Program-made: the position numbers and the translations under genes
In this document: one piece after another, positions 42,710 through 58,579 of the stretch
Layout of the letters: each line of letters opens with the position of its first letter
How positions within the stretch are numbered: position 1 is the stretch's first letter
Origin: Salinicola avicenniae
Lineage (GTDB): Bacteria > Pseudomonadota > Gammaproteobacteria > Pseudomonadales > Halomonadaceae
Direction: 5' to 3'
NCBI RefSeq assembly: GCF_023736115.1
Contig: NZ_JAKQZC010000004.1
Coordinates: 186,001 to 250,000 of the forward strand
Length of the DNA stretch: 64,000 nucleotides
Notes under the pieces: generated by a model
The model's database searches: none
The model's input: the letters and a program-made list of their open reading frames with translations, nothing else
Told to the model about the DNA's origin: nothing

Positions 42710-44842
42710 GTGGCGACACCCCCTGATAGCGCATCCGCCAAGGCGCGGATCGAGCGTCTGACACGCCGGCTGCAGCGCTCAGAAGCCGCACGAGAAGAGG
42801 CGGAGGCGATTCTCGAGCGGCGTAGCCGGGAGCTGCTGCAGGCCAACGAGCAGCTGATGGAGCGCGAGTCCGATCTGCGTGCCAGGCTGGAGCGCGAGAC
42901 GCAGCATCTGATTCGCGCGCAACGCACGGCGAGAATGGCCACCTTTCACCGCTATCGCGGCAGCCGGCTGGCGGCATCACCCGCCTTCAACAGCCTCCTG
43001 GGGATCAGCACCGAGGCCAAGCCCAGTGAGCAAACGCTATGGGAGGCCATCCACCCCTTCGATCGCGACAAGATACATCGCGCGGAAGCCGAGTTCTATC
43101 AATCCGCGGCAGCGGGAATAGACCATGAGTACGACTGTCGCATTCTGCGTGATGGCGAGGTTCGCTGGATACGCTGGATCATTCGCAAGGAAGTCGACGA
43201 CCAGGGTCGTTTCGTGTCGTTCATCGGGGCGGTGCAGGACATCACCGAGCAGCGCACCTCGGAGCGCCGGGCGCGAGCCCTGGCGCTGGTCGCCGAGCGG
43301 CGGGTCAGGCAGTTGACCCGGCTCAGCGACGCCCTGCGCGAGAGTCGCCGTGCCGCCGAAGCGGCGCTGCGGGTCAAGGCCGACTTTCTCGCCGCCATCA
43401 GCCACGACATCCGTACGCCGCTGAACGGCATCCTGGGCATGCTGGATCTGCTCTCGCTGGACGCCTTGCGTGTCGATCAGCGCGAGCGGCTCGGCATCGC
43501 CCAGGATGCCGCCAACCAGCTGCATCGCTATATCGAAGATATCGTCGACATGGCGCAGGCCGAAGAGGGCGCGCTGGAGTACTGGCCGCGGCGGGTGGAT
43601 ATCCACCGGCAGCTCGAGGATGTCATCCGTTTCTGGCAGGGCGGCGGACGCTCCGGGCCGACGCCGGCACTCGAGCTGGAGACAGCGTCGGCGACGGAGC
43701 TCACGCTGGTTACCGACCCGGTGCGCTTGCGCCAGATCCTCAATGTCTATATCGAGCGGCTGGCGGAACGGGGCATGCCGATTCGGATTGGCACCCAGCG
43801 GCGATCGGGGCGGTTGGATATCCGGCTCTCCTGCCCGGGGGACGAACAGGACCCTCTGGCGGCCGACCCGCGTCGGTGGGCGCTGCTGCAGCGTCTGGCA
43901 ACCACGATCGGGGCCCAGATACGGCCGCTGAACGTCCGGGCACGCGCCGGCGTCGTGCTGTCGCTGCCGCTGGCGGCTGACGAGGCGTCGCCCGGCGTGG
44001 CGTATGACGTCTCCGGCGTGCAAGAGACTGCTGGCCCCCGGCTCGATCGCGACGAGCCTCGGGTACTCGTCGTCGATGACATCGAGACCAACCGTGTCGT
44101 GCTGACCCAGCTGCTGCAGGTCATGGGTTACGTCAGCGACATCGCCTGTGATGGCGACGAGGCCGTGGAAAAGGTGCTGGACGGGGACGTTGCGTACGAC
44201 GCCGTGCTGATGGACCTGCGCATGCCGCGCATGTCCGGGGAGGAAGCGGTGGCGTGCATTCGCTCGACGGCGGATCCGCGATGGCAGCGTCTACCCATCG
44301 TCGCGGTCACTGCGCATGCCAACCGGGAAGAACTCGCCGGGTTACGGGCACGCGGGTTCACCGAGGCGATGACCAAGCCGGTCGATCGTCAGCGGCTCTC
44401 TGCGGTGCTGCGGCGCGTGCTCGATACCGCGTCGCTCGACGGGGCAAGCGACGTCGAGGCGCTGCCCGACGCGACGGCACGGGCGCAGGATGAAGCGCTA
44501 CCGGCCCCGATCGAGCCCGACTATTTTCGTACCCTGTTCAAACCGCTGCCCGCATCGCGGCGTGATCTGCTGCTGAAGGTGGCGATCGATGATTTCGAAA
44601 GGTTGATACAGGAGCTGGAGGCCGGTCACGCGCACGACAGCGCGGATGAGATCGAACGGGCCGCGCATAGTCTCAAGGGGGTGTCGGGTAACTTCGGCGC
44701 CTTCTCGCTGATGGCGGCAGTCGAGGCCTATCGGGCGCTGCCGCCTGAGGCCGCGGCGGCCCGCCTGCCGGCCCTGCGCGAACAGGTCGCGGGCGTGATC
44801 GACCACGCCCGCGACCTGTTCGCCAGTCTGGATTCGGATTGA
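42710..44842 (+). CDS. Hybrid histidine kinase-like protein with receiver and HPt domains, degenerate ATPase domain
   Basis: 710 residues. Order: coiled coil (about 5-70), a PAS domain (about 75-185), HisKA with the phosphoacceptor in AAISHDIRTPLNGILGMLDLL (His232), a C-terminal ATPase-like region, a receiver (VLVVDDIETNR...LMDLRMPRMSG, Asp502) and an HPt domain (AAHSLKGVSGNFGA, His653). No transmembrane segment is seen. In the ATPase region the N box reads LNVYIERLAERG and the G1 and G2 boxes cannot be found, so ATP binding is unlikely. GTG start with GGAG upstream. It borders the exopolysaccharide genes and could pass phosphate, via its HPt, to the LuxO-like regulator at 55.9 kb; that link is inferred. 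Confidence 0.88.
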   Translation: MATPPDSASAKARIERLTRRLQRSEAAREEAEAILERRSRELLQANEQLMERESDLRARLERETQHLIRAQRTARMATFHRYRGSRLAASPAFNSLLGISTEAKPSEQTLWEAIHPFDRDKIHRAEAEFYQSAAAGIDHEYDCRILRDGEVRWIRWIIRKEVDDQGRFVSFIGAVQDITEQRTSERRARALALVAERRVRQLTRLSDALRESRRAAEAALRVKADFLAAISHDIRTPLNGILGMLDLLSLDALRVDQRERLGIAQDAANQLHRYIEDIVDMAQAEEGALEYWPRRVDIHRQLEDVIRFWQGGGRSGPTPALELETASATELTLVTDPVRLRQILNVYIERLAERGMPIRIGTQRRSGRLDIRLSCPGDEQDPLAADPRRWALLQRLATTIGAQIRPLNVRARAGVVLSLPLAADEASPGVAYDVSGVQETAGPRLDRDEPRVLVVDDIETNRVVLTQLLQVMGYVSDIACDGDEAVEKVLDGDVAYDAVLMDLRMPRMSGEEAVACIRSTADPRWQRLPIVAVTAHANREELAGLRARGFTEAMTKPVDRQRLSAVLRRVLDTASLDGASDVEALPDATARAQDEALPAPIEPDYFRTLFKPLPASRRDLLLKVAIDDFERLIQELEAGHAHDSADEIERAAHSLKGVSGNFGAFSLMAAVEAYRALPPEAAAARLPALREQVAGVIDHARDLFASLDSD

Positions 44843-44866: not shown

Positions 44867-46282
44867 TCAGTAGGCGCCGCGACGGCTGAGAACGGCGGGG
44901 ACCGTGCGCAGCATCAGCCCGAAGTCGCGAAGGATGCTGCGGCTTTGCAGGTAGTCGATGTCCATGACGACCTGCTGCTCGAACGGAATGTCGGCGCGGC
45001 CCGAGACCTGCCAGGTGCAGGTGATGCCGGGTTTGCCGCCCAGGCGCTGCCAGCTGGCGTCGCGGTAGGTGACGACTTCGTCCGGCAGCGCGGGGCGCGG
45101 GCCGACGATCGACATCTCGCCGCGCAGCACATTGATCAGTTGCGGCAGCTCGTCGAGTGAGGTCTTGCGCAGCCAGGCGCCCACGCGGGTGATGCGCGGA
45201 TCGCGTTTCATCTTGAAGCAGACGCCGTCACGTTCGCTGCGGGCGAGCAGCTCGGCGCGACGCGCCTCGGCATCCCGCACCATGGAGCGGAACTTCAGCA
45301 TCATGAAGGGCTTGCCGTTGGCGCCGATACGGCGCTGGCGGAACAGCGCCGGGCCGCGATCCTCGGTGCGGATGGCCAGCGAGATGAGCGCGAACAGCGG
45401 GGCGAGTACCAGCAGCGCGGAACCGGCGATCGTCACGTCCACCAGACGCTTGAGCGCGGCATGGAAGCGGGTGCGGGCGAGGCGTGCCTGCAGTCCGGCC
45501 AGGGTGGCGTGCGCGAGGAAGGTCACGTTGCCGACGAGGTAACGCTGGGCCAGGCGGCGGGGCTCCTGGGCCAGGCGCCATACCCACTCGCAGCCGCAGC
45601 GGCGTACCCAGGCCGGGGCGCGAGTGACATTGTCGGCGTAGTAGTCGAACAGGCCGCCGACACCCAGCACGACGGGGACCCGCAGATGGTGGCGGTTCTC
45701 GGCGATCCAATTCTCCTGAACCGGCACGCCGAAGCCCACGAACAGCAGGTCCGGTTTTGCCCGATTGATGCGCGAGATCAGAAGCTCCGTCTCCTCGGCC
45801 GCGAAGAAGCCGTGCTGGGTGCCCGCGACGTTCAGCCCCGGATAGCGCTGCTGCATGGCGTCGGCGGCTCGGGCCGCGGTGCCCGGGCTGCCACCCAGCA
45901 GGTAGATAGAGAGTCCCTGAGTGGCGGCGCTTTCGCACAGGGCCGGGAACAGGTCAGTGCCGTTGAGATTGTCGCCCAGCGGCGCGCCGGCCAGCTTGGA
46001 GGCGATGCGAATGCCCGAGCCATCCGGCAGCAGCAGGTCGGTATGGGCCAGGCTCTCGCGATACTGCGCATCGCGGCGGGCCACGTTGACACAGTGCGCG
46101 TTGATGAAGTTGATCGTCGTCGGCGTGCCCTGAGCGGCACGCTCGATGATGGCGGTAACGGCTGCCTGCCGCGAGGCCGCCACCAGCGGCATGCCGAACA
46201 GGGGCGTGGTCTCCAGCGTCTGCTGCGGGGCCGGTGAGGCGGAGGCGTTGGCGGTACGGATGTCGAGGTTGGCAGTGTTCAT
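44867..46282 (-). CDS. Fusion of WecG/TagA/CpsF glycosyltransferase and initiating polyprenyl-phosphate sugar-phosphate transferase
   Basis: 471 residues. Residues about 25-250 are a GT26 WecG/TagA/CpsF domain (INFINAHCVNVARRD, TDLLLPDGSGI, LNGTDLFPAL, FVGFGVPVQENWIAEN). Residues about 275-471 are a bacterial sugar transferase with one membrane helix (VDVTIAGSALLVLAPLFALI), FMMLKFRSMV, KTSLDELPQLINVLRGEMS, and VGPRPALPDE. The second half starts a repeat unit on undecaprenyl phosphate and the first would add another sugar. These are normally separate proteins. GAGA site before ATG 46282. Transcribed away from the flippase gene. Confidence 0.92.
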   Translation of the reverse strand: MNTANLDIRTANASASPAPQQTLETTPLFGMPLVAASRQAAVTAIIERAAQGTPTTINFINAHCVNVARRDAQYRESLAHTDLLLPDGSGIRIASKLAGAPLGDNLNGTDLFPALCESAATQGLSIYLLGGSPGTAARAADAMQQRYPGLNVAGTQHGFFAAEETELLISRINRAKPDLLFVGFGVPVQENWIAENRHHLRVPVVLGVGGLFDYYADNVTRAPAWVRRCGCEWVWRLAQEPRRLAQRYLVGNVTFLAHATLAGLQARLARTRFHAALKRLVDVTIAGSALLVLAPLFALISLAIRTEDRGPALFRQRRIGANGKPFMMLKFRSMVRDAEARRAELLARSERDGVCFKMKRDPRITRVGAWLRKTSLDELPQLINVLRGEMSIVGPRPALPDEVVTYRDASWQRLGGKPGITCTWQVSGRADIPFEQQVVMDIDYLQSRSILRDFGLMLRTVPAVLSRRGAY

Positions 46283-46327: not shown

Positions 46328-46354
46328 GTCATAAACCGTGCCAGATTTTATTTT
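46328..46354 (-). promoter_or_regulatory. Sigma-54-like promoter element for the TagA-fusion gene
   Basis: On the minus strand AAAATAAAA-N2-TGGCACGGTTT-A-TGA. TGGCACG with a GG at the right distance (ten bases) from GA gives a good -24 box and an imperfect -12 box (ATGAC instead of TTGCA). The same 23 bases recur at 49,120. About 46 bases upstream of the start codon. Confidence 0.45.
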
Positions 46355-46434: not shown

Positions 46435-46447
46435 TTGCAGCTTGCAT
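46435..46447. promoter_or_regulatory. LuxO-type operator candidate
   Basis: TTGCA-GCT-TGCAT matches the LuxO consensus TTGCA-N3-TGCAA at 9 of 10 positions. It is followed at once by a longer inverted repeat TTGCA-N8-TGCAA (46442-46459). It lies roughly 120-140 bases from the predicted start sites of both divergent transcripts, a usual distance for a sigma-54 activator. Confidence 0.45.
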
Positions 46448-46553
46448 CGTCGAATGCAAATGGCATGTCAATTTGCGATGTCGGCGCCGAAAAACGCCAA
46501 TTCAGCCTCGGGAAAAATGGCTAATGGCTTGCCATGAAAAAGCTTTTTGGAAT

Positions 46554-46569
46554 TGGCCCGATTATTGAA
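46554..46569 (+). promoter_or_regulatory. Weak sigma-54-like promoter element for the flippase gene
   Basis: TGGCCCG-ATTA-TTGAA: the -24 GG and the -12 GA are ten bases apart. The -12 box has GA in place of GC, so this is only a candidate. It lies 47 bases before ATG 46616. Confidence 0.3.
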
Positions 46570-46615
46570 TGGGGTGGGCGAAGACTTCGAACCACAGCAC
46601 ATCACGGGGCCAGAC

Positions 46616-47899
46616 ATGAACCCATTCGCATTTCGCTCTCACCTTGCTCGTCGGGAGAACAGCCCGCTACTACGTGGCCTGGTCGCCTTCGGTAGCGCCG
46701 AGATGATCAACCGCGTCGTGCGTATCCTGGCGATCGTGGTGATCGCCCGGCAGGTGTCGCCTACCATCATGGGTGTGGCGGCACTGGCCCTGAGTCTGTT
46801 CGAAGTGGTCAGAGCGCTGGCCAACGCAGGGGTCGGCCAGCGCATTATCGCTGCCAGCGAGGATGCCCTGGCGGCCACCTGCAACACGGCCTTCAGACTG
46901 TTCTGGTGCTGGTGTGTCGGGGTCGCGGCGATTCAACTCGCCCTGGCCGGCGCTCTGCACCTCTTCGGCATGCGCGAGATTCCGCTGATGCTGGCGCTGC
47001 TTTCCGGCGTCTATCTGTTCATGCCGGCGGGCCTGGTGCAGGTGTTTCTGCTCATGCGTGAAGAGCGTTTCGGCACGATCGCGCGGATCGCCACCGTGCA
47101 GAACGTCAGCGATCACCTGCTGACGCTGCTCTTCGTTCTGATATGGCCGAGTGCCTGGGCCATCGTGCTGCCCAAGCTGGTCACCGCCCCGGTGTGGCTG
47201 GTGCTGGTGCGTCGTGCCAAACGCTGGATGCCGCAACCCGAGGCGGGGCATGTGCCCTGGCGCGCCTTCATGGGGTTCGCCGTCGGTGTCCTGATCACCG
47301 AGATGGTCAATGTCGCCCGCATCCAGCTCGACAAACTGATCGTGGGCGCCGTCTTCGGGGTCAAGGCCCTGGGTATCTACTACTTTGCGTTCAATGCCGG
47401 TCTCGGTATCACCACCTCCTTCGTGATGGCGCTGGGGCAGATCCTGTTCCCCTACATTTGCCGCGCGGATGATCTGGCGGAGCGCCGGCGCCGCTGCCAC
47501 AAGGGGCTGATGCTGGCGCTGGTGGTGTTCCTGCCGTTACTGCTGCTACAGGTGTGCCTGGCGCCCTGGTATGTACCGCTGATCTTCGGGGTGCAGTGGA
47601 CGCCGTCGGCGCCCTTGGTGTCGATACTGGGGCTCGGGGCGATGCCGATGATCTTCGCGGCGGTGGCCAGCGCCTGGTTGCGAGCGCTCGACCAGCCGGG
47701 GGTCGAGGCGATGATGAGCAGCATGGCGACGGCAGCGGCGCTGGGTGGCCTGGCGGCCTTTGCCGGCTGGGGATTGATGGCTGCCGCGGGCGCCTATGTG
47801 GCGGGGCTGGCACTGATCCTGATTCCGGGCTCGATTTGGTGTCTGAGGCAAGATGGTGGCATCGTTTCACGGATGCCGTTCAAGAGGGCTTGCGCATGA
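46616..47899 (+). CDS. Polysaccharide flippase (Wzx-like, PST family)
   Basis: 427 residues with about twelve hydrophobic segments. The N-terminus LVAFGSAEMINRVVRILAIVVIARQVSPTIMG and QLDKLIVGAVFGVKALGIYYFAF are typical of oligosaccharide flippases that move lipid-linked repeat units across the inner membrane. The start at ATG 46616 is supported by homology rather than by its weak ribosome site. Overlaps the next gene by ATGA. Confidence 0.9.
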   Translation: MNPFAFRSHLARRENSPLLRGLVAFGSAEMINRVVRILAIVVIARQVSPTIMGVAALALSLFEVVRALANAGVGQRIIAASEDALAATCNTAFRLFWCWCVGVAAIQLALAGALHLFGMREIPLMLALLSGVYLFMPAGLVQVFLLMREERFGTIARIATVQNVSDHLLTLLFVLIWPSAWAIVLPKLVTAPVWLVLVRRAKRWMPQPEAGHVPWRAFMGFAVGVLITEMVNVARIQLDKLIVGAVFGVKALGIYYFAFNAGLGITTSFVMALGQILFPYICRADDLAERRRRCHKGLMLALVVFLPLLLLQVCLAPWYVPLIFGVQWTPSAPLVSILGLGAMPMIFAAVASAWLRALDQPGVEAMMSSMATAAALGGLAAFAGWGLMAAAGAYVAGLALILIPGSIWCLRQDGGIVSRMPFKRACA

Positions 47900-49043: not shown

Positions 49044-49056
49044 TCGCAATCTGCAG
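49044..49056. promoter_or_regulatory. Weak LuxO-type operator candidate
   Basis: TCGCA-ATC-TGCAG matches TTGCA-N3-TGCAA at 8 of 10 positions. Its centre is about 107 bases upstream of the start site predicted from the element at 49131. Confidence 0.3.
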
Positions 49057-49119: not shown

Positions 49120-49145
49120 AAAATAAAAGTTGGCACGGTTTTTGA
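49120..49145 (+). promoter_or_regulatory. Sigma-54-like promoter element shared with the TagA-fusion gene
   Basis: AAAATAAAA-N2-TGGCACGGTTT-T-TGA. Perfect -24 heptamer TGGCACG; the -12 box is TTGAT with GA instead of GC at the correct ten-base distance. It is 60 bases before the glycosyltransferase ATG. Confidence 0.5.
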
Positions 49146-49205
49146 TAATCAAAGAGTAAAGACACTTGCTTCACCCAATTTCTTTATTCACTTGGAGTAT
49201 CCGCC

Positions 49206-50198
49206 ATGACCCTGCCCACCATCTCCGTCATCATGCCCGTCTACAATGTGGAAGCGTTTGTCGGCGAGGCGATCCAATCGGTGCTCGATCAGACGTTCCA
49301 GGATTTCGAGCTCATCATCGTCGACGACGGCTCCCTCGATAACAGCATGCAGGTGTGCCGAGGGTTTGCGGATGAGCGCATCCGTATCGTGACCCAGCGC
49401 AACCGGGGCCTCGCAGGCGCCCGCAACAGTGGCATCGCGGTGGCCCGCGGGCGTTACATCGCGCTGCTGGACTCCGATGACCGCTGGGACCCGACCAAAC
49501 TCGCACTGCACTTCATCCATCTCAATGCCGATGACGCGGTCGACGTCAGTTATTCCGGCTCGCGCCTGATCGACGCCGAAGGCCGCCCGCTCGGTGTCAG
49601 CCAGCAGCCCCGGCTGACCGGCGTCGAGGCCCGCCACGTCCTCACGCGCAACCCGGTGGGCAATGGGTCGGCGCCGGTGATTCGGCGTCGCGCCCTGGAT
49701 CGTGTCGCCTTCGTGCATCCGCAAGAGCCCGGGCGCCTGTGCTGGTTCGACGAGAGCTTCCGCCAGTCGGAGGACATCGAGCTGTGGCTGCGCATGATCG
49801 CGGGGTACGGCTGCCGCTTCGAGGGCATCGACGGCCTGCTTACCGACTATCGCATCGTGATCGGCGGGCTCTCCTCCAACGTGATTCGTCAGTACGAAAG
49901 CTGGGAGCGGGCGATCTCCAAGGCGCAGGCATACGCGCCTGAGCTGCTGGCGCGTCACGGCGCGCGTGCCCGGGCTTATCAGCTACGCTATCTGGCAAGG
50001 CGAGCGGTGCAGCTGGGGGATGGCTCCTTCGCCGTGGCCCTGATGCGTCAGGCGCTCGCAGCCAGTCCTTGGATCGCGCTGCAGGAGCCTTACAAGACGC
50101 TCGAAACGGGGCTCGGTGCGATGGCGGCACGCTGGCTGTCGCGTGAACGTTTCGCCCTGCTGCTGAGTCGTCGCTTGGGTACCGAGGTGGCCGCATGA
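49206..50198 (+). CDS. Family 2 glycosyltransferase
   Basis: 330 residues, GT-A fold: ISVIMPVYNVEAFVGEAIQSVL, IVDDGSLDNSM, NRGLAGARNSGIAVARGRYI with ALLDSDDRWDP (DxD motif) and QSEDIELWLRM. A GGAG site is eight bases or so before ATG 49206. Overlaps the next gene by ATGA. Similar in layout to the glycosyltransferase at 47.9 kb, including the helical C-terminal tail. Confidence 0.92.
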   Translation: MTLPTISVIMPVYNVEAFVGEAIQSVLDQTFQDFELIIVDDGSLDNSMQVCRGFADERIRIVTQRNRGLAGARNSGIAVARGRYIALLDSDDRWDPTKLALHFIHLNADDAVDVSYSGSRLIDAEGRPLGVSQQPRLTGVEARHVLTRNPVGNGSAPVIRRRALDRVAFVHPQEPGRLCWFDESFRQSEDIELWLRMIAGYGCRFEGIDGLLTDYRIVIGGLSSNVIRQYESWERAISKAQAYAPELLARHGARARAYQLRYLARRAVQLGDGSFAVALMRQALAASPWIALQEPYKTLETGLGAMAARWLSRERFALLLSRRLGTEVAA

Positions 50199-51184
50199 AA
50201 ACGCTCGAGATCGTACATTTGCTGGACGATGTCTCCCCCGGCGGGGTCATGCAGGCGCTGGCGATCTTTGAGCACCCTGCCTGGGTCGGCCGTCTGCGCA
50301 GCCGGGTGGTGACGGTGAAGCCGGATCAGACGTTGGCGCCGAGTCTGAAAGCGGATGTGATCATGACGCACTTTCCGCCGCGCTGGCGGGCGCTGCCCTT
50401 CCTCGTGTCGCTGCGGCTGCGCAATCGTCACGCTCGGCTGATTCATATCGAGCACAGCTATACCCGTGCCTGGGCGGCACATCATGTGCCGCGCTTCGGC
50501 CGCTTTCGGATGATGCTGAACATCGCCAGCCGTCTGTTCGACCGTATCGTCGCGGTGTCGCAGGGGCAGTCGCAATGGTTGACCGAGGCCGTGGGAATAG
50601 AGCCGCGACGCCTGCAGGTTGTCTCTCCCTGGAGCGATGTTCCCGCGCTGCAGGCGGTGCCGCCCTCGGACTGGCAGGGGCAGCGCACGCTGGTGGTGGG
50701 GGCCTATGGCCGTTTCGATCGACAGAAAGGGTTCGAGCGGCTGATCGCGCGTTTCCTCGCGCTGGACCCGGCGCACTATCAGCTGCGGCTGGGCGGCAGC
50801 GGGGCGGAAGAGCCGGCGCTGCGGGCGCTGGCTGGAGAGGCGCCGCACATCCACTTCGTCGGGCAAGTCGATGATCGTGCCGGCTTCCTGGCCGCCTGTG
50901 ACATCATCGCCGTACCCTCGCGCTGGGAATCCTTCGGCCTGGTGGCGGCCGAGGCGCGGCAGGCGGCCCGGCCGCTACTGGTCGCCGGCGTGGATGGGCT
51001 GCCCGAGCAAGCGGCCGAAGCGGGGTGGGAAGTGGATTTCGATAGCGAACACGGCCTGAGTAGCTGCCTTCAGCATCTGACGCCGCCGCGGCTGGGGGCC
51101 ATGGCCGCATCGGCGCGGTTATCAACGCAGTGCCTGGTCGATGATCGACTCCTGCGCTGGCGGCAGTTACTGCCGCTCGACTGA
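50195..51184 (+). CDS. Family 4-like glycosyltransferase (GT-B fold)
   Basis: 329 residues. The N-terminal half has VHLLDDVSPGGVMQAL; the C-terminal half has the GT4 features GAYGRFDRQKGFERLI, IHFVGQVDDRAGFLAACDIIAVPSRWESFGLVAAEA, with the E-x7-E type motif in ESFGLVAAEA. Probably adds a sugar to the repeat unit. The 3' end overlaps the convergent polymerase gene by 18 bases. Confidence 0.9.
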   Translation: MKTLEIVHLLDDVSPGGVMQALAIFEHPAWVGRLRSRVVTVKPDQTLAPSLKADVIMTHFPPRWRALPFLVSLRLRNRHARLIHIEHSYTRAWAAHHVPRFGRFRMMLNIASRLFDRIVAVSQGQSQWLTEAVGIEPRRLQVVSPWSDVPALQAVPPSDWQGQRTLVVGAYGRFDRQKGFERLIARFLALDPAHYQLRLGGSGAEEPALRALAGEAPHIHFVGQVDDRAGFLAACDIIAVPSRWESFGLVAAEARQAARPLLVAGVDGLPEQAAEAGWEVDFDSEHGLSSCLQHLTPPRLGAMAASARLSTQCLVDDRLLRWRQLLPLD

Positions 51185-52534
51185 GTCTTCCGCCGCCGCT
51201 GGCAGCTCGCCTTGCCGATGCGGTGCTGGCGCCCCCGGCTCAGCCCTCCCTCCGGTGGTTTCCACACGCCGCCAGGCGGCCTGTCTGGCCGCGATGCCGA
51301 CGATGACCAGCGCCGGCCAGTAGAGATAGCTCAGAATCTCCAGGTTCTCCCCGAAGCTGTAGAGGGTGAGCAGCAGCAGCATGGCCAGGGCGACGCGACC
51401 GACCGGTTGGTAGAGCGCCAGCCTGCCCGCCATCCAGAAGCTCGCCGCCAGCGGCACGGCCAGGGCGATCGCCCCCAGCAAGCCTTTGACGAAGAGCAGG
51501 CCGTACCAGCTATGGTGGCTGCCGATCGGCATGTACTCGACCAGATGCGGGCCGTTTTCCACGATGCCGTGGCCGAACCAGGGCGCCTCGTTCTGCCAGC
51601 GTTCGATGGCGATACGGCCCAGGGCGGCGCGCACTCGGCTGGAGTCGGCGCGGGCGCTGGTGAAACGCTGTATGGCCTGGTCCATCAAGCCCTGTATCTG
51701 GGGAGACAGCAGCCCCAGCAGCAAGATGGCGGGGGCCGCGGTGAACCAGGTCCAGGGCTGGCGCAGGCGGCTGACAGCGAACGACACCGGCCAGACGATC
51801 GCCAGCGCTACCAGTGCCAGGCGTGACTGGCAGAGCAGCGCGATCAGCAGGCCCGCCGACACGCCGATGATTTTCCAGCCCAACTGCTTCTCCTCCAGCG
51901 CGCAGAGGATGTGCACTACCGCGATCATGCCGGCCGCCGGTGACCAGGGGGCGAAGAACTGCCAGCGTGGCACGCCGGTCCCCGGCTCCAGCGTATACAG
52001 AATCACTGCAAAGTACTCCGGTCCCGACCCGCCGACGATCTTGAGTGGCGATACATACAGCTGGCCCGGCAGCCCCACGAACGGCGCGACCAGAAACAGA
52101 GGGATCAGGATCAGCGTCTGCAGTCCCAGGCGGCAGACGGCCCGATAGATCACCTCGGGGCGCACGGGCAGCAGCGCGCCGGCCAGCGGGAACAGCGCCA
52201 GAAGTGCCCAGCCCTTGGCCCAGCCGATCGAGGACTTGATGGTCTTGGCGGTACCCAGCTCATTGAGCAGATGCCCGACGATCAGGATCACCAGCATCGC
52301 CAGCATCGCCAACAGCCAGATGAAGATCACCGGATGGGGCGGCGGCGGGCGCCATGACGTGGCGTCCTCCGGGGCCAGGTATAGCGTGACCGCCGCCATC
52401 GCCACCAGGATCCAGGCCATGGCCGGCCCGGCGATGTACAGACCGCCGAGCAGCCAGAGCAGCCAGGTGCACTGAATGGCGACCGAAATCAGCCTTTCGG
52501 CAGCAGTAGTTTGATGATCGGCTGGCGTAGCCAT
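51167..52534 (-). CDS. O-antigen ligase/polymerase family membrane protein (Wzy-like)
   Basis: 455 residues with about eleven hydrophobic segments and a large loop containing RVRAALGRIAIERWQNEAPWFGHGIVENG and the GSHHSWYGLLFVKGL motif typical of the Wzy_C/O-antigen polymerase family. Probably polymerises repeat units on the periplasmic side. Its start overlaps the chain-length gene by 46 bases, so it is the third gene of the minus-strand export operon. The C-terminal tail is hydrophilic. Confidence 0.85.
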   Translation of the reverse strand: MATPADHQTTAAERLISVAIQCTWLLWLLGGLYIAGPAMAWILVAMAAVTLYLAPEDATSWRPPPPHPVIFIWLLAMLAMLVILIVGHLLNELGTAKTIKSSIGWAKGWALLALFPLAGALLPVRPEVIYRAVCRLGLQTLILIPLFLVAPFVGLPGQLYVSPLKIVGGSGPEYFAVILYTLEPGTGVPRWQFFAPWSPAAGMIAVVHILCALEEKQLGWKIIGVSAGLLIALLCQSRLALVALAIVWPVSFAVSRLRQPWTWFTAAPAILLLGLLSPQIQGLMDQAIQRFTSARADSSRVRAALGRIAIERWQNEAPWFGHGIVENGPHLVEYMPIGSHHSWYGLLFVKGLLGAIALAVPLAASFWMAGRLALYQPVGRVALAMLLLLTLYSFGENLEILSYLYWPALVIVGIAARQAAWRRVETTGGRAEPGAPAPHRQGELPAAAEDSVERQ

Positions 52535-53901
52535 AGCAGCAGGAAGCCCATGATGACGAAGAGACTGGCGACCACGCCGCCAGCCACCGCAAGCACCGCC
52601 GACGGCGACGAGGGAGCGCTGGGCAGCGAAGGCGACTCGAAGGTCTGGACGAGCGGGTAGGACGCGAAGGGGTCCGACTTGTTGGTGTCCAGCCGGGCCA
52701 GTGCCGAGGAGAAGACCGCCTCGGAGATCCGCAGCTCCCTGAGCAGATCCGACAGGCCGGCGGCCATGGTCACCAGATCGCCATGATCCTGGTTCTCGCG
52801 TCGAATCTGCTGCTGAATCTCCACCAGCTCCGCGTTGATGCCGGCCACCCGGCCTTCTGCGCTCAAGAGCTCATCGAACAGTCTGGCGCGGCCTTCGCTC
52901 ACCGAGAGGTCGACGAAGCGCTGCAGGGTTTGGGTCGGCAACCCCGTGAGCGTCGCACCGCGCGCCAGCATCGCCTGCAGCAGGGTATCTTTCTGGGCCT
53001 GGCGTTCGCTCAAGCGCAGATGGCGATCGCCCAGCGTGGCGCGATCCTGATTCCAGTCGGTCAGCGCGATGGCGTAGCGCGACAGCAGCGACTGAAAGAT
53101 CGGGTCTGCCTTCAGCAGCAGCGCGCTACGCGCCTCCGCCAGGGACACCTGCAACAGCTGGCTCAGGCGCTCGGCCGTGGCCCGGTAGCGCTCCAGCTCG
53201 AGCCGCGCGCTGCGTTGCTGCGCCTCCAGGTCATCGACGACCCCCAGGCGCTGATTGAACTGCTCGAGCGTTGCCAGCCCCGCCTCTCCCTGGAACTCGA
53301 GCACGCGGCGCTGCGCTTGCTGTAACTTCTGCTGTAGCTCCTGAAGCCTGTCGCGGTCCGCCGTTTCGCGCTTCTCCGCCTCGTCTTGGCGCAGGCGCTT
53401 CAGGCTGGACAGGAAGCTCTGACGCAACGCTTCGAGACGCGCCTGCGCCTGCTCAGGCGTCGGGCCTGCCATGGCCACCATGATCAGGTTGGTCTGATCG
53501 ACCAGGCGCACGCTCGGACTGGGCAGCATGCCACCGCCATCGTCCAGGCGCTGCGCGCCACGCTGGAGCACCAGGTCCGAACTCAGCAGCCGCTTGTAAT
53601 TCTCCGTCGGGCTCAGCGAGGGCGTCGCGAAAGCGGAGCTCGTCTGCGACGAGGCCTGACCGATGGACTCCAGATTGATCGAGCCACCGACACCCGATCC
53701 GGGCAGTATCAGGGTCATCGAGCTCTTGTAGCTGACCGGTGCCAGCAGCAGATAAGCGGCCAGCAGTCCCCAGATCATCAGCAGGAAGGGGGCGATGGCG
53801 ATGATATAGCGGCGATAACGACCCGCCGAGGGTAGCCCATCTCGAATGAACCACCAGAGACGCAGCAGCCGGCGCGGTGAAGGTGAGCGGTTATCGGTCA
53901 T
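52489..53901 (-). CDS. Polysaccharide chain-length/co-polymerase protein (Wzz/GumC-like)
   Basis: 470 residues. Two membrane helices (about 32-54, IIAIAPFLLMIWGLLAAYLLL, and about 438-460) flank a long periplasmic region rich in coiled coil (about 165-260). It lacks the C-terminal tyrosine kinase domain of Wzc. Controls chain length and links to the export pore. Overlaps the upstream export lipoprotein gene by ATGA. Confidence 0.88.
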   Translation of the reverse strand: MTDNRSPSPRRLLRLWWFIRDGLPSAGRYRRYIIAIAPFLLMIWGLLAAYLLLAPVSYKSSMTLILPGSGVGGSINLESIGQASSQTSSAFATPSLSPTENYKRLLSSDLVLQRGAQRLDDGGGMLPSPSVRLVDQTNLIMVAMAGPTPEQAQARLEALRQSFLSSLKRLRQDEAEKRETADRDRLQELQQKLQQAQRRVLEFQGEAGLATLEQFNQRLGVVDDLEAQQRSARLELERYRATAERLSQLLQVSLAEARSALLLKADPIFQSLLSRYAIALTDWNQDRATLGDRHLRLSERQAQKDTLLQAMLARGATLTGLPTQTLQRFVDLSVSEGRARLFDELLSAEGRVAGINAELVEIQQQIRRENQDHGDLVTMAAGLSDLLRELRISEAVFSSALARLDTNKSDPFASYPLVQTFESPSLPSAPSSPSAVLAVAGGVVASLFVIMGFLLLWLRQPIIKLLLPKG

Positions 53902-55109
53902 GGTGAGGCATCGTGGATGAGAATGACGGTGGCGGCCGGCCCCAGGGCTTCGCCCACCATCGACACGGCGTCCCTGACGTTCATCCAGCGGCTGTCGTAA
54001 CAGGCGAGCGCGTCGCGGGGCATCAGATAGGGGTTGATACGATCCCGGTCCGGGCGCTCCAGCATGTCCTCGACATCGCGGTCGATGACCACGGTGGTGT
54101 CATCGAACGGGTTGGTGGAGATGAGAACGGCATGGCGGTGAGCGTTCATGGCCGAGCCGCCAACACAGTTGGCGCTGACCAGCCCCTGCAGTAGCCGCGT
54201 GCCGTAGGGCAGGCTGGTCGACTCCTTGCCGATCGCCGAGGAGGCGTTGCTGGCGGCGGGTCGTGACAGGTTGGACATGAACACGCGTACCCCGGGTGGC
54301 GTGACCGGTGTCGGGCGCACGAGCGCCGCGTCGAAGCAGTGCGTGCTGGGCACCTCGATACGATCTCCGGGGGCCAGTCGCAGGTCATCGGCGCCGCTGC
54401 CTTCGACCAGCCCGGCGAGGTCGACTGTCGTCCACTGGTCACCTCGAATGACACGCACGTCGCCCAGGTTGGCATCCGGACGGGCACCGGCGGCAGCCAT
54501 GATCGCCATTGATAGATTGCGACCGAGATTGGCATCCCCCGCCACCGGGCCGTCGCGCTGGCCGATGCGACTCTCGACCGGGCGTTCACCGATGCGCACG
54601 GTGCCCGCATTGAAAACCGCGCCGCTGACCGAAATCGAGATACCCGCACGCTCCACCAGCGAGACGGCAGCGACACGCGGTAGACGCCGGACCAGCTGCG
54701 CCTCGACGAGCCTGTCGCTCAAGCGGGCTTCCACCTCGGCGACGGAGCGTCCGGTGGTGTCGATCACGGGCAGGCCGGGTAGTGCCAGGTGGCCGAGTTC
54801 ATCGATGACGTACAGCTTCGAGAGGTCCCCCGGGTCGCCGAGCACGTCGACACGCAGGCGGTCGCCGGGGGCGAGACTGGCAGGCTCGGCGCGCATCTGT
54901 GCCGCCGGGACATACGTTTTTCCGGCCGGCGGGGGCGGCGACATAGCGGGCGTGCATTGGCGTTGGTAGGCGTCGGCCTCCCACTGTTGCGGCATCCATA
55001 AGGCGCCATCCCGGTTTTCGGGCGTGGGGGCCGACTGGCAGCCGCTCAGTGTCATTGCGGCGGTGACGATCCACGCCATGGTGCGTGTACGGTGATGGGC
55101 TTTATGCAT
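53898..55109 (-). CDS. Polysaccharide export lipoprotein (Wza-like)
   Basis: 403 residues. Signal peptide with lipobox in TAAMTLSGCQSAP (Cys at about residue 24). The polysaccharide-export domain starts at LAPGDRLRVDVLGDPGDLSKL, followed by SLBB-like segments with ISISVSGAVFNAGTVRIGERP and LRLAPGDRIEVPS. Forms the outer-membrane exit. ATG 55109 with AGAGGT just upstream is preferred to the GTG six bases earlier. First gene of the export operon. Confidence 0.9.
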   Translation of the reverse strand: MHKAHHRTRTMAWIVTAAMTLSGCQSAPTPENRDGALWMPQQWEADAYQRQCTPAMSPPPPAGKTYVPAAQMRAEPASLAPGDRLRVDVLGDPGDLSKLYVIDELGHLALPGLPVIDTTGRSVAEVEARLSDRLVEAQLVRRLPRVAAVSLVERAGISISVSGAVFNAGTVRIGERPVESRIGQRDGPVAGDANLGRNLSMAIMAAAGARPDANLGDVRVIRGDQWTTVDLAGLVEGSGADDLRLAPGDRIEVPSTHCFDAALVRPTPVTPPGVRVFMSNLSRPAASNASSAIGKESTSLPYGTRLLQGLVSANCVGGSAMNAHRHAVLISTNPFDDTTVVIDRDVEDMLERPDRDRINPYLMPRDALACYDSRWMNVRDAVSMVGEALGPAATVILIHDASP

Positions 55110-55202
55110 GCGCACCTCTCTACATAATCCATCATTGTAGAGAAGTCGATGCGGAAAGGAATCGAGGTATTATTAGATTTCACTCTATCTCTCGATGGAA
55201 TG

Positions 55203-55236
55203 TCGCAAGTTGCAAAGACATTGATGCTGTTTGCAA
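55203..55236. promoter_or_regulatory. Pair of LuxO-type operator candidates
   Basis: TCGCA-AGT-TGCAA (55203-55215, 9 of 10 to TTGCA-N3-TGCAA) and ATGCT-GTT-TGCAA (55224-55236, 8 of 10) have centres 21 bases apart, two helical turns. A further TGCAA half-site lies at 55254-55258, 22 bases on. They lie about 90-120 bases upstream of the predicted H-NOX start site. Confidence 0.55.
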
Positions 55237-55274: not shown

Positions 55275-55293
55275 GCTGCTATTTTCGTGCCTA
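55275..55293 (-). promoter_or_regulatory. Sigma-54 promoter candidate facing the export operon
   Basis: On the minus strand AGGCACG-AAAA-TAGCA: GG (55291-55290) and GC (55279-55278) are separated by exactly ten bases. The predicted leader to the export lipoprotein ATG is about 155 bases. Confidence 0.5.
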
Positions 55294-55298
55294 GATAT

Positions 55299-55314
55299 TG
55301 GCATCGATATTGCA
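55299..55314 (+). promoter_or_regulatory. Sigma-54 promoter of the H-NOX/LuxO-like operon
   Basis: TGGCATC-GATA-TTGCA fits the consensus TGGCAYR-N4-TTGCW almost fully; GG at 55300-55301 and GC at 55312-55313 are ten bases apart. The predicted start site is near 55325, 45 bases before the H-NOX ATG. It is back to back with the minus-strand candidate, five bases away. Confidence 0.75.
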
Positions 55315-55369: not shown

Positions 55370-55921
55370 ATGAAAGGGTTGATCTTTGTCGAGCTGATGA
55401 ACTTCCTCGATGAGCAGCTGGGTGACGCCATTACCGAGAAGGTGGTGGAGGCGGCCTCGCTGCCCAACGACGCCGCGTTCACCTCGGTTGGCAACTATCC
55501 CAGCCACTACGCGGCAGACCTGGTAACGGCCGCGGCCAGGATGACCGGTGCCGATGCCGCTTTGATGTGCGAAGATTTCGGCCGTTTTATCTTCCAGCGT
55601 TTCCAGACACGTTTTCCACATCTATTGTCGCGCTACACCAGTGCCCGGGAGCTTCTCGAGCATGTCCAGGGGCATATCCATGAGGAGGTCAAGGTCATTT
55701 ATCCCGATGCTTCGCCACCGCAGGTGGAAACGCACAGTGATATAGAGGGCTATACCGTCACTTATCGTTCGGGGCGGGGGTTCGCCCATATCGCGTACGG
55801 TCTAGTAGCGCAGTGCATCTCATTCTATAGTGAACAGAGCGACGTCACTTGGAAACCCGGCAGCACCGCCACGCAGGCGTGCTTCATTATTCGGCCCAGA
55901 AAAGGTATCTATCCTCTATGA
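55370..55921 (+). CDS. H-NOX (heme-NO-binding) domain protein
   Basis: 183 residues, a stand-alone H-NOX sensor that binds NO (possibly O2 in some members) on heme in the cytoplasm. Evidence: start MKGLIFVELMNFLDEQLGD, SLPNDAAFTSVGNY, the proximal His104 in QGHIHEEVKVIYPDASPP, and the heme-propionate motif Tyr-x-Ser-x-Arg (YRSGR, residues 132-136). Length is normal. It overlaps the LuxO-like gene by ATGA, so the two proteins are made together. Stand-alone H-NOX proteins usually regulate an adjacent kinase or diguanylate cyclase; pairing with a sigma-54 activator gene is less usual. Confidence 0.93.
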   Translation: MKGLIFVELMNFLDEQLGDAITEKVVEAASLPNDAAFTSVGNYPSHYAADLVTAAARMTGADAALMCEDFGRFIFQRFQTRFPHLLSRYTSARELLEHVQGHIHEEVKVIYPDASPPQVETHSDIEGYTVTYRSGRGFAHIAYGLVAQCISFYSEQSDVTWKPGSTATQACFIIRPRKGIYPL

Positions 55922-57360
55922 CGGAAAGCTCTCGGGTGTTGATCGTCGAAGACATCATGTCTCTGGCGCTCACCTATGCCAGTCAGCTGGAGGCCGCCGG
56001 GTGCCAGGTCGAAATCGCCGATAGTGGAGAGAAAGCCCGCTATTACATCGAGGCCGGCCGACGCGATGGAGAGGCATTCGATGTCATCCTGCTCGACCTG
56101 AAACTGCCGGATGTCGATGGTCTTGATTTTCTGGCGGATGCCCCCGAGCTGACCAAGCATGCCAGCGTTGTCGTCATTACTGCGGACGGCTCCATCAATC
56201 GGGCCATCCAGGCCATGCGTCTGGGAGCCTACGACTTCCTGGTCAAGCCGGTCTCGGTCGAGCGCTTGACGACCACCGTGAAACGCGCCGGCGAGCGGCT
56301 GCGTCTCGAGCAGGAAGTGCAGGTGGCGCGCAGTCTCCAACGGCGTGAACAGTTTCAGGGCTTCATTGGCGGCTCCGACGTCATGCAGGTCGTCTATCGC
56401 GCGATCGAGAACGTCGCCAACTCCAAAGCCACCGTATTCATCACCGGCGAAAGCGGGACCGGCAAGGAGGTGGCGGCCGAGGCCATCCACGAGCTCAGTC
56501 AGCGGCGGTCGGGGCGTTTCGTCGCAATCAACTGTGGCGCCATACCCGAAAACCTTCTCGAGTCCGAGCTCTTTGGCCATGTCAAAGGCGCCTTTACCGG
56601 CGCGCTGGAAAATCGCACCGGGGCTGCCAGAGAGGCCAGTGGCGGTACGCTGTTTCTGGACGAAATCTGCGAGATGGAGCTGAAACTGCAGGTCAAGCTA
56701 TTGCGCTTTCTGCAGACTGGCATGGTGCAGCCCGTCGGTAGCAACCGAACCGTGCCGGTGGATGTGCGCGTGATCTGTGCCACCAACCGCGACCCCTTGG
56801 TCGAGATGAGCGAGGGGCGTTTCCGCGAGGATCTCTTCTATCGTCTCTCTGTGCTGCCTATCGATCTGCCTCCGTTGCGGCAACGGGGGGATGATGTGGT
56901 GCTGCTGGCTCAGGCGTTCATGACGCGTTTTTCCAACGAAGAGGGCAAGACGTTCGAGGCGCTCGACGATGAGACGCAGCAAACGCTGCATCGATACCAC
57001 TGGCCGGGCAATGTCCGCGAGCTGCAAAACGAGATTCGCCGCGCCGTGGTGATGAGCGCCGGTAACCAGCTCTCTCTGGCACATCTGGGGACGACCGCGG
57101 CGTCACCGGCCATGCGTGCCGAGTCCGGAGGCAGTGAGCCGACACAGCCGCAACACGCCCCCGATGCTGGCGCTGATGCAGCTCCGTCCGTACTCGCCTT
57201 TCAGGGTCTGACGCTCGAGCAGATCGAAAAGATGGTGATCGAAAAGGCCATCGCCAACAATGGCGGCAGTGTGCCCGGTGCGGCGCGCGATCTCGCCGTC
57301 AGCCCCTCCACGATCTACCGCAAGCTGGAAAAATGGTCTTTGACCGGAACCTCGTCTTAG
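55918..57360 (+). CDS. LuxO-type sigma-54-dependent response regulator
   Basis: 480 residues. Receiver (VLIVEDIMSL, phospho-acceptor Asp60 in VILLDLKLPDVDG, Lys110), AAA+ domain with Walker A GESGTGKE (177-184), the sigma-54 contact loop GAFTGA (224-229), GTLFLDEICEM and FREDLFYRLSVLPIDLPPLRQRG, and a Fis-type helix-turn-helix at the end (GAARDLAVSPSTIYRKLEKW). Motif by motif it follows Vibrio LuxO (QGFIG..., SKATVFITGESGTGKEV, LLRFLQTGMVQ), not merely NtrC. Probably activates sigma-54 promoters near the EPS genes. The TAG stop abuts a MITE. Confidence 0.93.
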   Translation: MTESSRVLIVEDIMSLALTYASQLEAAGCQVEIADSGEKARYYIEAGRRDGEAFDVILLDLKLPDVDGLDFLADAPELTKHASVVVITADGSINRAIQAMRLGAYDFLVKPVSVERLTTTVKRAGERLRLEQEVQVARSLQRREQFQGFIGGSDVMQVVYRAIENVANSKATVFITGESGTGKEVAAEAIHELSQRRSGRFVAINCGAIPENLLESELFGHVKGAFTGALENRTGAAREASGGTLFLDEICEMELKLQVKLLRFLQTGMVQPVGSNRTVPVDVRVICATNRDPLVEMSEGRFREDLFYRLSVLPIDLPPLRQRGDDVVLLAQAFMTRFSNEEGKTFEALDDETQQTLHRYHWPGNVRELQNEIRRAVVMSAGNQLSLAHLGTTAASPAMRAESGGSEPTQPQHAPDAGADAAPSVLAFQGLTLEQIEKMVIEKAIANNGGSVPGAARDLAVSPSTIYRKLEKWSLTGTSS

Positions 57361-57498
57361 GTGCTGTCTGAAAAGTCGACGAGTGAAGGTCAGGCAAGGC
57401 AAAAATCGTCGAAAACGCGGAGTTTACGGGTTGTAAATGAGCATTTTGAGCCGATTTTTAACGCCGCATGGGCGAGCACAGTACTTTTCAGACAGTGC
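57361..57498. mobile_element. MITE of about 138 bp with terminal inverted repeats
   Basis: The left end GTGCTGTCTGAAAAGT and the right end ACTTTTCAGACAGTGC are inverted repeats with two mismatches. The flanks are TTAG (containing the stop codon of the luxO-like gene) and CTAG, as expected for a four-base YTAR-type target duplication known from IS5-like elements. Inside, AAAAATCG and CGATTTTT can pair. It has no coding capacity. The IS family is inferred. Confidence 0.75.
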
Positions 57499-57595
57499 CT
57501 AGTTTGCTTCGTGTTGTTGGTCGGGGTTGGAGTGCAGCGCATCGACAGACGCTGACATAAAGACGTTGCTGGTTTTATCGAGGCTTGGGGTGTCA

Positions 57596-58579
57596 ATGTC
57601 CAAAGGTGAGATTCTGGTCGTGGGCGGCGCCGGTTATATCGGTTCGCACATGGTCGAGCATCTGTATCGATCGGGATATCGGGTGACCGTTCTGGATAAT
57701 CTATCCACAGGACATGCCGATGCCGTCGTCAATGCCGAGCTGGTCGTCGCTGACCTCGGAGATAGAGAGGCGCTAGGGCGTCTCTTTCGGTCCAAGGTCT
57801 TCGATGCCGTGATGCATTTCGCGGCCTTGAGCGAAGTCGGTGCCTCCGTCACGCAGCCCGAGGCCTACTATCAGAACAATGTGGCCAAGACCCTTGCGTT
57901 GCTGGCAGAGATGCGCTGCCACGGCGTGGATACGTTCGTGTTCTCGTCGACGGCGGCGGTCTACGGGGACGCCCACAAAAGTGCCATCGGCGAGTCGAGC
58001 GGTACCTCGCCGATCAATCCTTATGGGTGGTCGAAGCGCTTCATCGAGCAGATCCTTCGCGACTATGCCCACAGCTATGCGCTGAGGCCGATGATCTTTC
58101 GCTATTTCAATGCGGCGGGTGCCGATCCCGAGGGGCGATTGGGCGAACGCCACGATCCTGAGACGCACCTCATTCCGCTGCTGCTCCAGGCCGCTTCCGG
58201 CCGCCGCGCTGACTTCACGCTGTTCGGCAGCGACTACCTGACGCAGGATGGTTCCTGCGTCAGGGACTTCATCCATGTCGACGACCTGTGTCGCGCGCAT
58301 CGCCTGGGTCTGGAGGCGCTGTTGCGAGGAGAGCCGGGCGATGTCTTCAATCTGGGAAGTGGCGTTGGTTACAGTGTCCTGCAGGTCATCGAATCGGTCA
58401 GACGCGTAACCGGGTGTGATGTCGTCGTCAAGACTGCCGACCGTCGCCCTGGCGATCCGGCGTATCTCGTCGCCGACGTGACAAAGGTCGAGTGTGCGCT
58501 GGGATGGCGGCCTCACTACTCGCTGGATGGGATAGTGGCCCATGCCTGGCGCTTTGAAACCGATAGGGCGCAGGGATAA
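57596..58579 (+). CDS. galE: UDP-glucose 4-epimerase
   Basis: 327 residues of an extended SDR epimerase: nucleotide motif VVGGAGYIGSHMVEHL, LDNLSTGHADAV, catalytic SSTAAVYG serine and the Tyr-x3-Lys motif in NPYGWSKRFIEQ, plus FRYFNAAGADPEGRLGE. Provides UDP-galactose, probably for the polysaccharide made by the neighbouring genes. The start at ATG 57596 matches the family N-terminus. The MITE separates it from the LuxO-like gene, so co-transcription is uncertain. Confidence 0.93.
   Translation: MSKGEILVVGGAGYIGSHMVEHLYRSGYRVTVLDNLSTGHADAVVNAELVVADLGDREALGRLFRSKVFDAVMHFAALSEVGASVTQPEAYYQNNVAKTLALLAEMRCHGVDTFVFSSTAAVYGDAHKSAIGESSGTSPINPYGWSKRFIEQILRDYAHSYALRPMIFRYFNAAGADPEGRLGERHDPETHLIPLLLQAASGRRADFTLFGSDYLTQDGSCVRDFIHVDDLCRAHRLGLEALLRGEPGDVFNLGSGVGYSVLQVIESVRRVTGCDVVVKTADRRPGDPAYLVADVTKVECALGWRPHYSLDGIVAHAWRFETDRAQG

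Follow-up and report, generated by a model that had tools for sequence, protein, structure and literature searches.

An H-NOX gene overlapping a LuxO-like activator gene in an exopolysaccharide cluster of Salinicola avicenniae: a likely nitric oxide pathway with an ATPase-less relay protein

The analyzed stretch of DNA, hereafter the window, comprises 64 kb of the Salinicola avicenniae genome (G000:C6:186001-250000) and harbors a gene for an H-NOX heme-domain sensor of 183 amino acids (55370..55921, + strand). The protein was recognized by the Pfam model HNOB with 106.1 bits versus a cut-off of 25.5, and its translation directly displays the proximal histidine His104 as well as the heme-propionate motif YxSxR in the form Y132-R-S-G-R136. 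His104, Tyr132, Ser134 and Arg136 are unchanged in 10/10 aligned relatives, which substantiates the H-NOX gene with His104 and a YRSGR motif reported in a preliminary description of this DNA. The AlphaFold model of the sensor (pTM 0.75) places helices first and strands after them. Judged from its family, the protein is predicted to bind NO at a ferrous heme on His104. It is the single H-NOX match in its own genome; versions 86-96% identical to it occur in two other Salinicola genomes (G176 and G177), and a search of plasmids gave 18 records with a best identity of 34.5%.

The stop codon of the H-NOX gene overlaps as ATGA with the start codon (ATG at 55918) of a gene encoding a response regulator, hereafter RR, of 480 amino acids with the phospho-acceptor Asp60 (55918..57360, +). 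Pfam recognized a receiver, a sigma-54 AAA+ and a Fis-type HTH domain. With the GAFTGA motif and the phosphorylatable Asp, RR has the build of LuxO/SypG-type activators, and its receiver residues D12, D60, T88 and K110 are unchanged in 10/10 sequences. The best NCBIfam model is LuxO and the closest PDB sequence is LuxO 5ep0, as expected from the preliminary description, which had RR follow LuxO. Orthology implied by the name LuxO-type was rejected, because the score of 537.9 bits misses the curated cut-off of 800; hence, the protein is called LuxO-like here, and 15 other genomes among the 369 of the class hold a regulator scoring similarly or higher with the LuxO model.

Divergently to the sensor gene lie genes for a Wza-type polysaccharide export protein (53898..55115, -; Poly_export 39.5 bits), a Wzc-like chain-length determinant (52489..53901, -) and a Wzy-like polymerase/ligase (51167..52534, -; Wzy_C 30.1 bits, slightly below the cut-off of 31.7), so that the claimed neighborhood of exopolysaccharide (EPS) export genes was found as described. 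The Wzc-like protein, which gave no Pfam match, was assigned from weak NCBIfam matches and its position. The cluster further contains a WecG-type glycosyltransferase fused to a polyprenyl sugar-phosphate transferase (44867..46282, -; Pfam), a Wzx-type flippase (46547..47899, +; NCBIfam and alignment), whose conserved start is probably near 46616, and two glycosyltransferases, one of family 2 encoded by the second GT2 gene (49206..50198, +), named from sequence reading and kept in 10/10 loci, and one of family 4 (50195..51184, +; Pfam). On the other side, RR is followed by galE for UDP-glucose 4-epimerase (57527..58579, +; NCBIfam), which stands directly after RR also in 6/9 Halomonadaceae relatives. 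A repeat element of about 143 bp (57361-57503) with the ends GGTGCTGTCTGAAAAGT and GGCACTGTCTGAAAAGT separates the RR stop codon from galE. The genome holds one complete copy of it and three incomplete ones (74-85%), and the insert is lacking at this place in L038, the closest relative.

The pairing of sensor and activator genes is widely conserved. Among 275 genomes of the family, 24 carry H-NOX with 26 matches in total. For the 25 matches that lie elsewhere than in the window, the neighboring genes were read. Counting the window, ten of the 26 have the same RR (66-98% identical to that of the window in BLASTP) encoded after them. The two genes overlap in all ten of these Halomonadaceae loci, as ATGA in nine and by 8 bases in L040. 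Each of the ten has the same Wza-Wzc-Wzy operon opposite it, and the flank on the other side varies by genus. The 16 other H-NOX genes of the family have different partners: two adjoin a full hybrid kinase (L027, L028) and four adjoin GGDEF-EAL proteins (L029-L032; Pfam on L029 only). The remaining ten (L042-L051) form a second, divergent Salinicola class with PAS-GGDEF(weak)-EAL partners (Pfam on L042, L043 and L045; partners examined except in L044), and several of these loci have an ion-channel-like gene, named from sequence reading, nearby.

Outside the family, a peptide-pattern scan with the window H-NOX was run on a genome collection with one genome per species (84,980 species). It gave 36 loci, of which seven belong to Halomonadaceae, eight from seven genomes to Sphingomonadales (42-49% identity) and 21 are distant (30-36%); L125 among the latter is also a Sphingomonadales metagenome-assembled genome (MAG). 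RR follows H-NOX in 8/8 of the Sphingomonadales loci with 57-64% identity in seven, and the RR of L116 is 67% identical over the 219 residues up to the contig end. Five of the junctions were inspected, two of which have ATGA and three do not. Divergent Wza-Wzc-Wzy genes are also present in L121 and L123. One Sphingomonadales MAG (L118, L116) holds either two copies of the relay-sensor-RR arrangement given below or two strains binned together. The RR-linked H-NOX proteins form one clade of 17 rows with a support of 100/99, in a tree that omits L038, whose H-NOX is 96% identical, and some of the loci linked to kinases or EAL proteins. Chance adjacency was rejected, given the occurrence of the pair in 18/18 loci. 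In none of them was a full kinase recognized directly beside H-NOX by BLAST to reference proteins, the ORF preceding H-NOX being unassigned in L117, L119 and L120. The direct encoding of the sensor with its LuxO-like output, as noted before, holds for 10/10 Halomonadaceae and 8/8 Sphingomonadales loci.

The Wzc-like protein occurs at an identity of at least 64% in 10/275 genomes, and a Wzc with 33-35% identity, marking a distant form of the EPS cluster, was found in seven more genomes of the family. All seven lack an H-NOX match, and the four distant clusters that were read contain no relative of H-NOX, of the LuxO-like regulator or of the relay protein described below. Hence, the three signaling genes seem to be gained and lost jointly with the present version of the EPS cluster. 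In L091-L098, distant clusters from two other Halomonadaceae genera, the first gene encodes a small protein, STAS-like by sequence reading, and replaces the H-NOX, RR and relay genes.

At 42710..44842 (+) lies the gene for a hybrid protein of 710 amino acids, hereafter hyb1, with the order coiled coil-PAS-HisKA-(degenerate ATPase)-REC-Hpt, which is the proposed H-NOX partner. The preliminary description had correctly pointed to a hybrid protein at 42.7 kb but missed that it has no recognizable ATPase domain. Pfam (E 0.01) found no HATPase_c in the hyb1 proteins tested, namely 8 of 10 from Halomonadaceae and 3 of the 8 strong Sphingomonadales matches, and in two of the proteins (L058:16147-17892 and L060:2403-4097) the ATPase region is cleanly missing between HisKA and REC. 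The putative phosphorelay residues His232, Asp502 and His653 (window numbering) are unchanged in six aligned sequences. The hyb1 gene of L056 is apparently frameshifted and was kept outside the Pfam scans and the alignments A5 and A6, and that of L053 contains one unknown base and was used as is. The structural model of hyb1 (pLDDT 72.7, pTM 0.36) displays a long N-terminal helix from residue 6 to 87, whose end has low confidence, and in place of the ATPase a reduced alpha/beta region. A fold search with this model of pTM 0.36 returned many kinases at low TM-scores, RetS and DivL structures among the listed matches, which supports a kinase-like core for hyb1 and nothing further.

The distribution of hyb1 closely follows that of the sensor. 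In 10/10 Halomonadaceae loci, its gene lies at the end of the EPS cluster remote from H-NOX, and its N-terminal 200 residues score at least 262 bits in exactly the 10/275 family genomes with this H-NOX, the next best match having 63 bits. The same search found it in 7/7 Sphingomonadales genomes, where the gene order is hyb2-hyb1-H-NOX-RR in L118 and L122 and hyb1-H-NOX-RR in L116, hyb2 being the kinase described below; in G641 and G643 it lies about 12 kb from H-NOX. Hence, hyb1 is present in all 17 genomes carrying the H-NOX/RR pair, an exact co-occurrence on the strength of which an unrelated neighbor was rejected. Furthermore, a hidden Markov model of N-terminal sequences, taken from 18 kinases whose genes adjoin other H-NOX genes, was run on the 1109 ORFs of the loci. 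It ranked same-kind kinases first, then 14 hyb1 proteins (10 from Halomonadaceae and 4 from Sphingomonadales) and then four GGDEF-EAL partners; hyb2 did not appear among the matches from these 1109 ORFs. The score of the window hyb1 is a modest 36.8 bits, and coiled coils score partly through composition. Following this ranking, the shared N-terminal helix is the likely H-NOX contact on hyb1, and it is the main reason for preferring an action of H-NOX on hyb1 over an action on RR.

In many relatives, hyb1 is accompanied by a full kinase, hyb2, with a HisKA-HATPase-REC architecture and PAS domains. It precedes hyb1 in 6/10 Halomonadaceae loci (Pfam on 5/6), a hyb2-like sequence stands immediately before hyb1 in G641 and G643, and hyb2 of L118 gave a sub-threshold Cache match. 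A profile search revealed no hyb2 ortholog in the S. avicenniae genome, where the best match reached 163 bits, nor in the Salinicola genomes G174, G176 and G177, where matches of at most 298 bits covered part of the protein only; reference scores were 1280 bits for G085, a near relative of the profile rows, and 602 bits for G642. This lack of an ortholog in 4/4 Salinicola genomes checked was counted against the explanation favored below.

Regulatory sites were analyzed in the ten Halomonadaceae loci. The LuxO enhancer TTGCAWWWTGCAA has also been described in SypG-responsive regions of V. fischeri qrr1 (PMC10162802). Enhancers were scanned for with at most one mismatch and the three center bases free, one-mismatch sites being counted within loci only. 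In the 64-kb window such sites occur only at 46435 and 55203, one in each of the cluster's two divergent intergenic regions: TTGCAGCTTGCAT (46435..46447) between the divergent WecG-type and Wzx genes, and TCGCAAGTTGCAA (55203..55215), one mismatch away from TTGCANNNTGCAA, between H-NOX and Wza. The only perfect TTGCANNNTGCAA site of the genome, read on both strands, lies outside the window (G000:C9:99466-99478). Throughout the ten loci, 43/50 cluster and H-NOX genes have an enhancer upstream versus 1/282 other ORFs on the same stretches (H-NOX, Wza, Wzx and WecG-type 9/10 each, GT2 7/10). Because divergent genes share sites, the independent count is 25/30 intergenic regions. At this threshold, enhancers are missing from the H-NOX-Wza region of L038, from the WecG-Wzx region of L040, and before GT2 in the window, L038 and L036; the closest enhancer-like site to the window GT2 is at 49044 with two mismatches. 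The single background case is probably L041:462-770, a doubtful ORF pointing away from the WecG-Wzx region. RR is the putative binding protein at these enhancers.

A sigma-54 site of the -24/-12 type, TGGCATCGATATTGCA, precedes H-NOX (55299..55314, +), and a strict site is found there in 10/10 loci. Of shuffled regions, 7.5% contain a strict sigma-54 site and 2.5% contain an enhancer. In the Sphingomonadales, the sigma-54 site is found before H-NOX in 8/8 loci, matching at 10 to 12 of 12 positions, and the enhancer in 7/8, with L123 as the exception. The sites before the EPS genes rest on alignment and constant position, because sigma-54 scans also match background: the relaxed scan hit 108/282 background regions and does not discriminate, and the strict one hit 31/317 upstream regions. 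In the WecG-Wzx region, back-to-back -24/-12 elements, whose -12 part is often GA, flank the enhancer; in the window these are the sigma-54-like sites TGGCACGGTTTATGAC for the WecG/sugar-transferase gene (46328..46343, -), where TGGCACG is visible in 10/10 aligned loci, and TGGCCCGATTATTGAA for Wzx (46554..46569, +; alignment). Another such site, TGGCACGGTTTTTGAT (49131..49146, +; alignment), stands before the second GT2 gene, which is preceded by a sigma-54-like site at near constant distance in 10/10 loci. The candidate site of the Wza operon (55277..55292, -) is weak; elsewhere among the loci it is missing or another site stands instead.

Collectively, these sequence data favor, with a probability of about 0.75, a single pathway in which H-NOX, hyb1 and RR control their own EPS cluster. 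NO would be bound by H-NOX at the ferrous heme on His104, as expected from the family. The sensor would then touch the N-terminal coiled coil of hyb1 and shift the state of its HisKA-REC-Hpt relay, a step suggested by co-occurrence, contiguity and the shared N-terminal motif. Since hyb1 lacks a recognizable ATPase domain, its phosphate would come from a second kinase, probably the adjacent hyb2 in many relatives; Salinicola might use another kinase or a small phosphodonor instead. Subsequently, hyb1 might pass phosphate to Asp60 of RR or drain it from there. Finally, phosphorylated RR on TTGCA-N3-TGCAA sites would open the sigma-54 promoters of the H-NOX/RR operon and the EPS units. The sign of the NO effect is a guess made from Vibrio, by analogy with which RR phosphorylation and EPS production would most likely fall. 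Because the same gene set recurs in distant bacteria, NO may switch the whole EPS cluster. Hence, the earlier view of the pair as an NO switch for matrix production gains from its conservation in the EPS cluster and from the matching enhancers in the intergenic regions, but its part on a missing relay did not stand: phosphorelay components had been regarded as absent for want of LuxU, yet the Hpt domain of hyb1 can do the job of LuxU. A wider generalization is more tentative and, in our estimate, falls somewhat short of even odds. It would define an H-NOX class across Gamma- and Alphaproteobacteria in which an ATPase-less DHp-REC-Hpt relay partners the sensor directly and translational coupling links sensor and RR. 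In Salinicola, where such a system would work without a dedicated kinase, NO would gate a phosphate drain or shuttle instead of a kinase.

The preliminary description had offered two routes for the H-NOX signal, via the regulator itself or via the 42.7-kb hybrid. Direct binding to the receiver or AAA+ domain of RR, with no phosphorelay and hyb1 as a mere neighbor, would fit the gene overlap in 10/10 Halomonadaceae loci and the lack of a kinase gene between the two genes, but we regard it as improbable: the receiver residues D12, D60, T88 and K110 remain invariant, and hyb1 tracks the pair exactly through all 17 genomes and adjoins it in L116, L118 and L122. The same contiguity and co-occurrence, together with the N-terminal motif, make the route via the hybrid the favored one. 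A decaying, non-functional relay in Salinicola after the loss of hyb2, with H-NOX as a relic, appears similarly unlikely. The missing hyb2 in 4/4 genomes, the degenerate ATPase region of hyb1 and the small repeat element between RR and galE in the window would agree with decay; against it speak the kept phospho-acceptors, the 86-96% identity of H-NOX in G176 and G177, the largely kept promoter and enhancers, and the fact that ATPase-free hyb1 is also found alongside intact hyb2.

It is considerably easier to imagine that two inputs converge on RR, although we hold this to be a little less probable than its opposite. Here, hyb2/hyb1 would sense another signal and phosphorylate RR, and H-NOX would only tune hyb1 or its phosphatase activity. 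The PAS domains of hyb2 and the sub-threshold Cache match in L118 point in this direction, as does the retention of H-NOX and hyb1 without hyb2 in Salinicola. However, such a scheme is a finer version of the single pathway of H-NOX, hyb1 and RR and is compatible with it.

If the single pathway holds true, a kinase-dead relay would connect H-NOX to transcription, and one cluster would contain a near-complete candidate circuit from NO to matrix: the sensor, the relay protein, the activator with its enhancers, and candidate promoters as targets. Halophiles such as Halomonas smyrnensis (L112), and Sphingomonadales as well, would likely join the bacteria whose EPS is under NO control. Among the matches listed from the open-licence literature, no title or abstract beginning describes this system.

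Kinase-dead proteins working with a full kinase are known from the pairs RetS-GacS and DivL-CckA, to which hyb1 can be likened; to our knowledge, neither has been tied to H-NOX. An H-NOX input into a phosphorelay is also found in the H-NOX-HqsK-LuxU circuit of V. harveyi and V. parahaemolyticus, where the kinase is reported to feed quorum sensing via LuxU. This circuit targets LuxO, and its output is quorum sensing via Qrr RNAs. The Qrr model (RF00378) had no match in the S. avicenniae genome, nor in the control genomes, RF00195 (RsmY) matched below its cut-off, and Rfam gave no match at 40-64 kb of the window. The Vibrio quorum circuit has a dedicated full kinase beside H-NOX, whereas none was recognized in the 18 loci here. 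According to a review, H-NOX genes usually adjoin kinase or cyclase/phosphodiesterase genes (PMC8738867). A sigma-54 RR residing inside an EPS locus and controlling it is likewise described for ScvE of the V. parahaemolyticus scv locus (PMC8941931); the text of that paper has zero mentions of H-NOX, nitric oxide, Halomonas, Salinicola or Sphingo. The closest parallel is V. fischeri, where HnoX is reported to restrain the kinase HahK, which signals through the Hpt domain of SypF or through LuxU to SypG and thereby to the EPS locus syp (PMC12369376). The system proposed here would share with it an H-NOX input, an Hpt hybrid phosphorelay, a sigma-54 RR and EPS as output (PMC12369376, PMC8941931). 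In V. fischeri, hnoX is operonic with HahK, whereas the Salinicola H-NOX gene overlaps the RR gene, its likely partner hyb1 is without a recognizable ATPase domain, and an enhancer is situated before the sensor/RR operon. Our best reading is, therefore, that the Salinicola circuit follows a V. fischeri-like logic with a different wiring.
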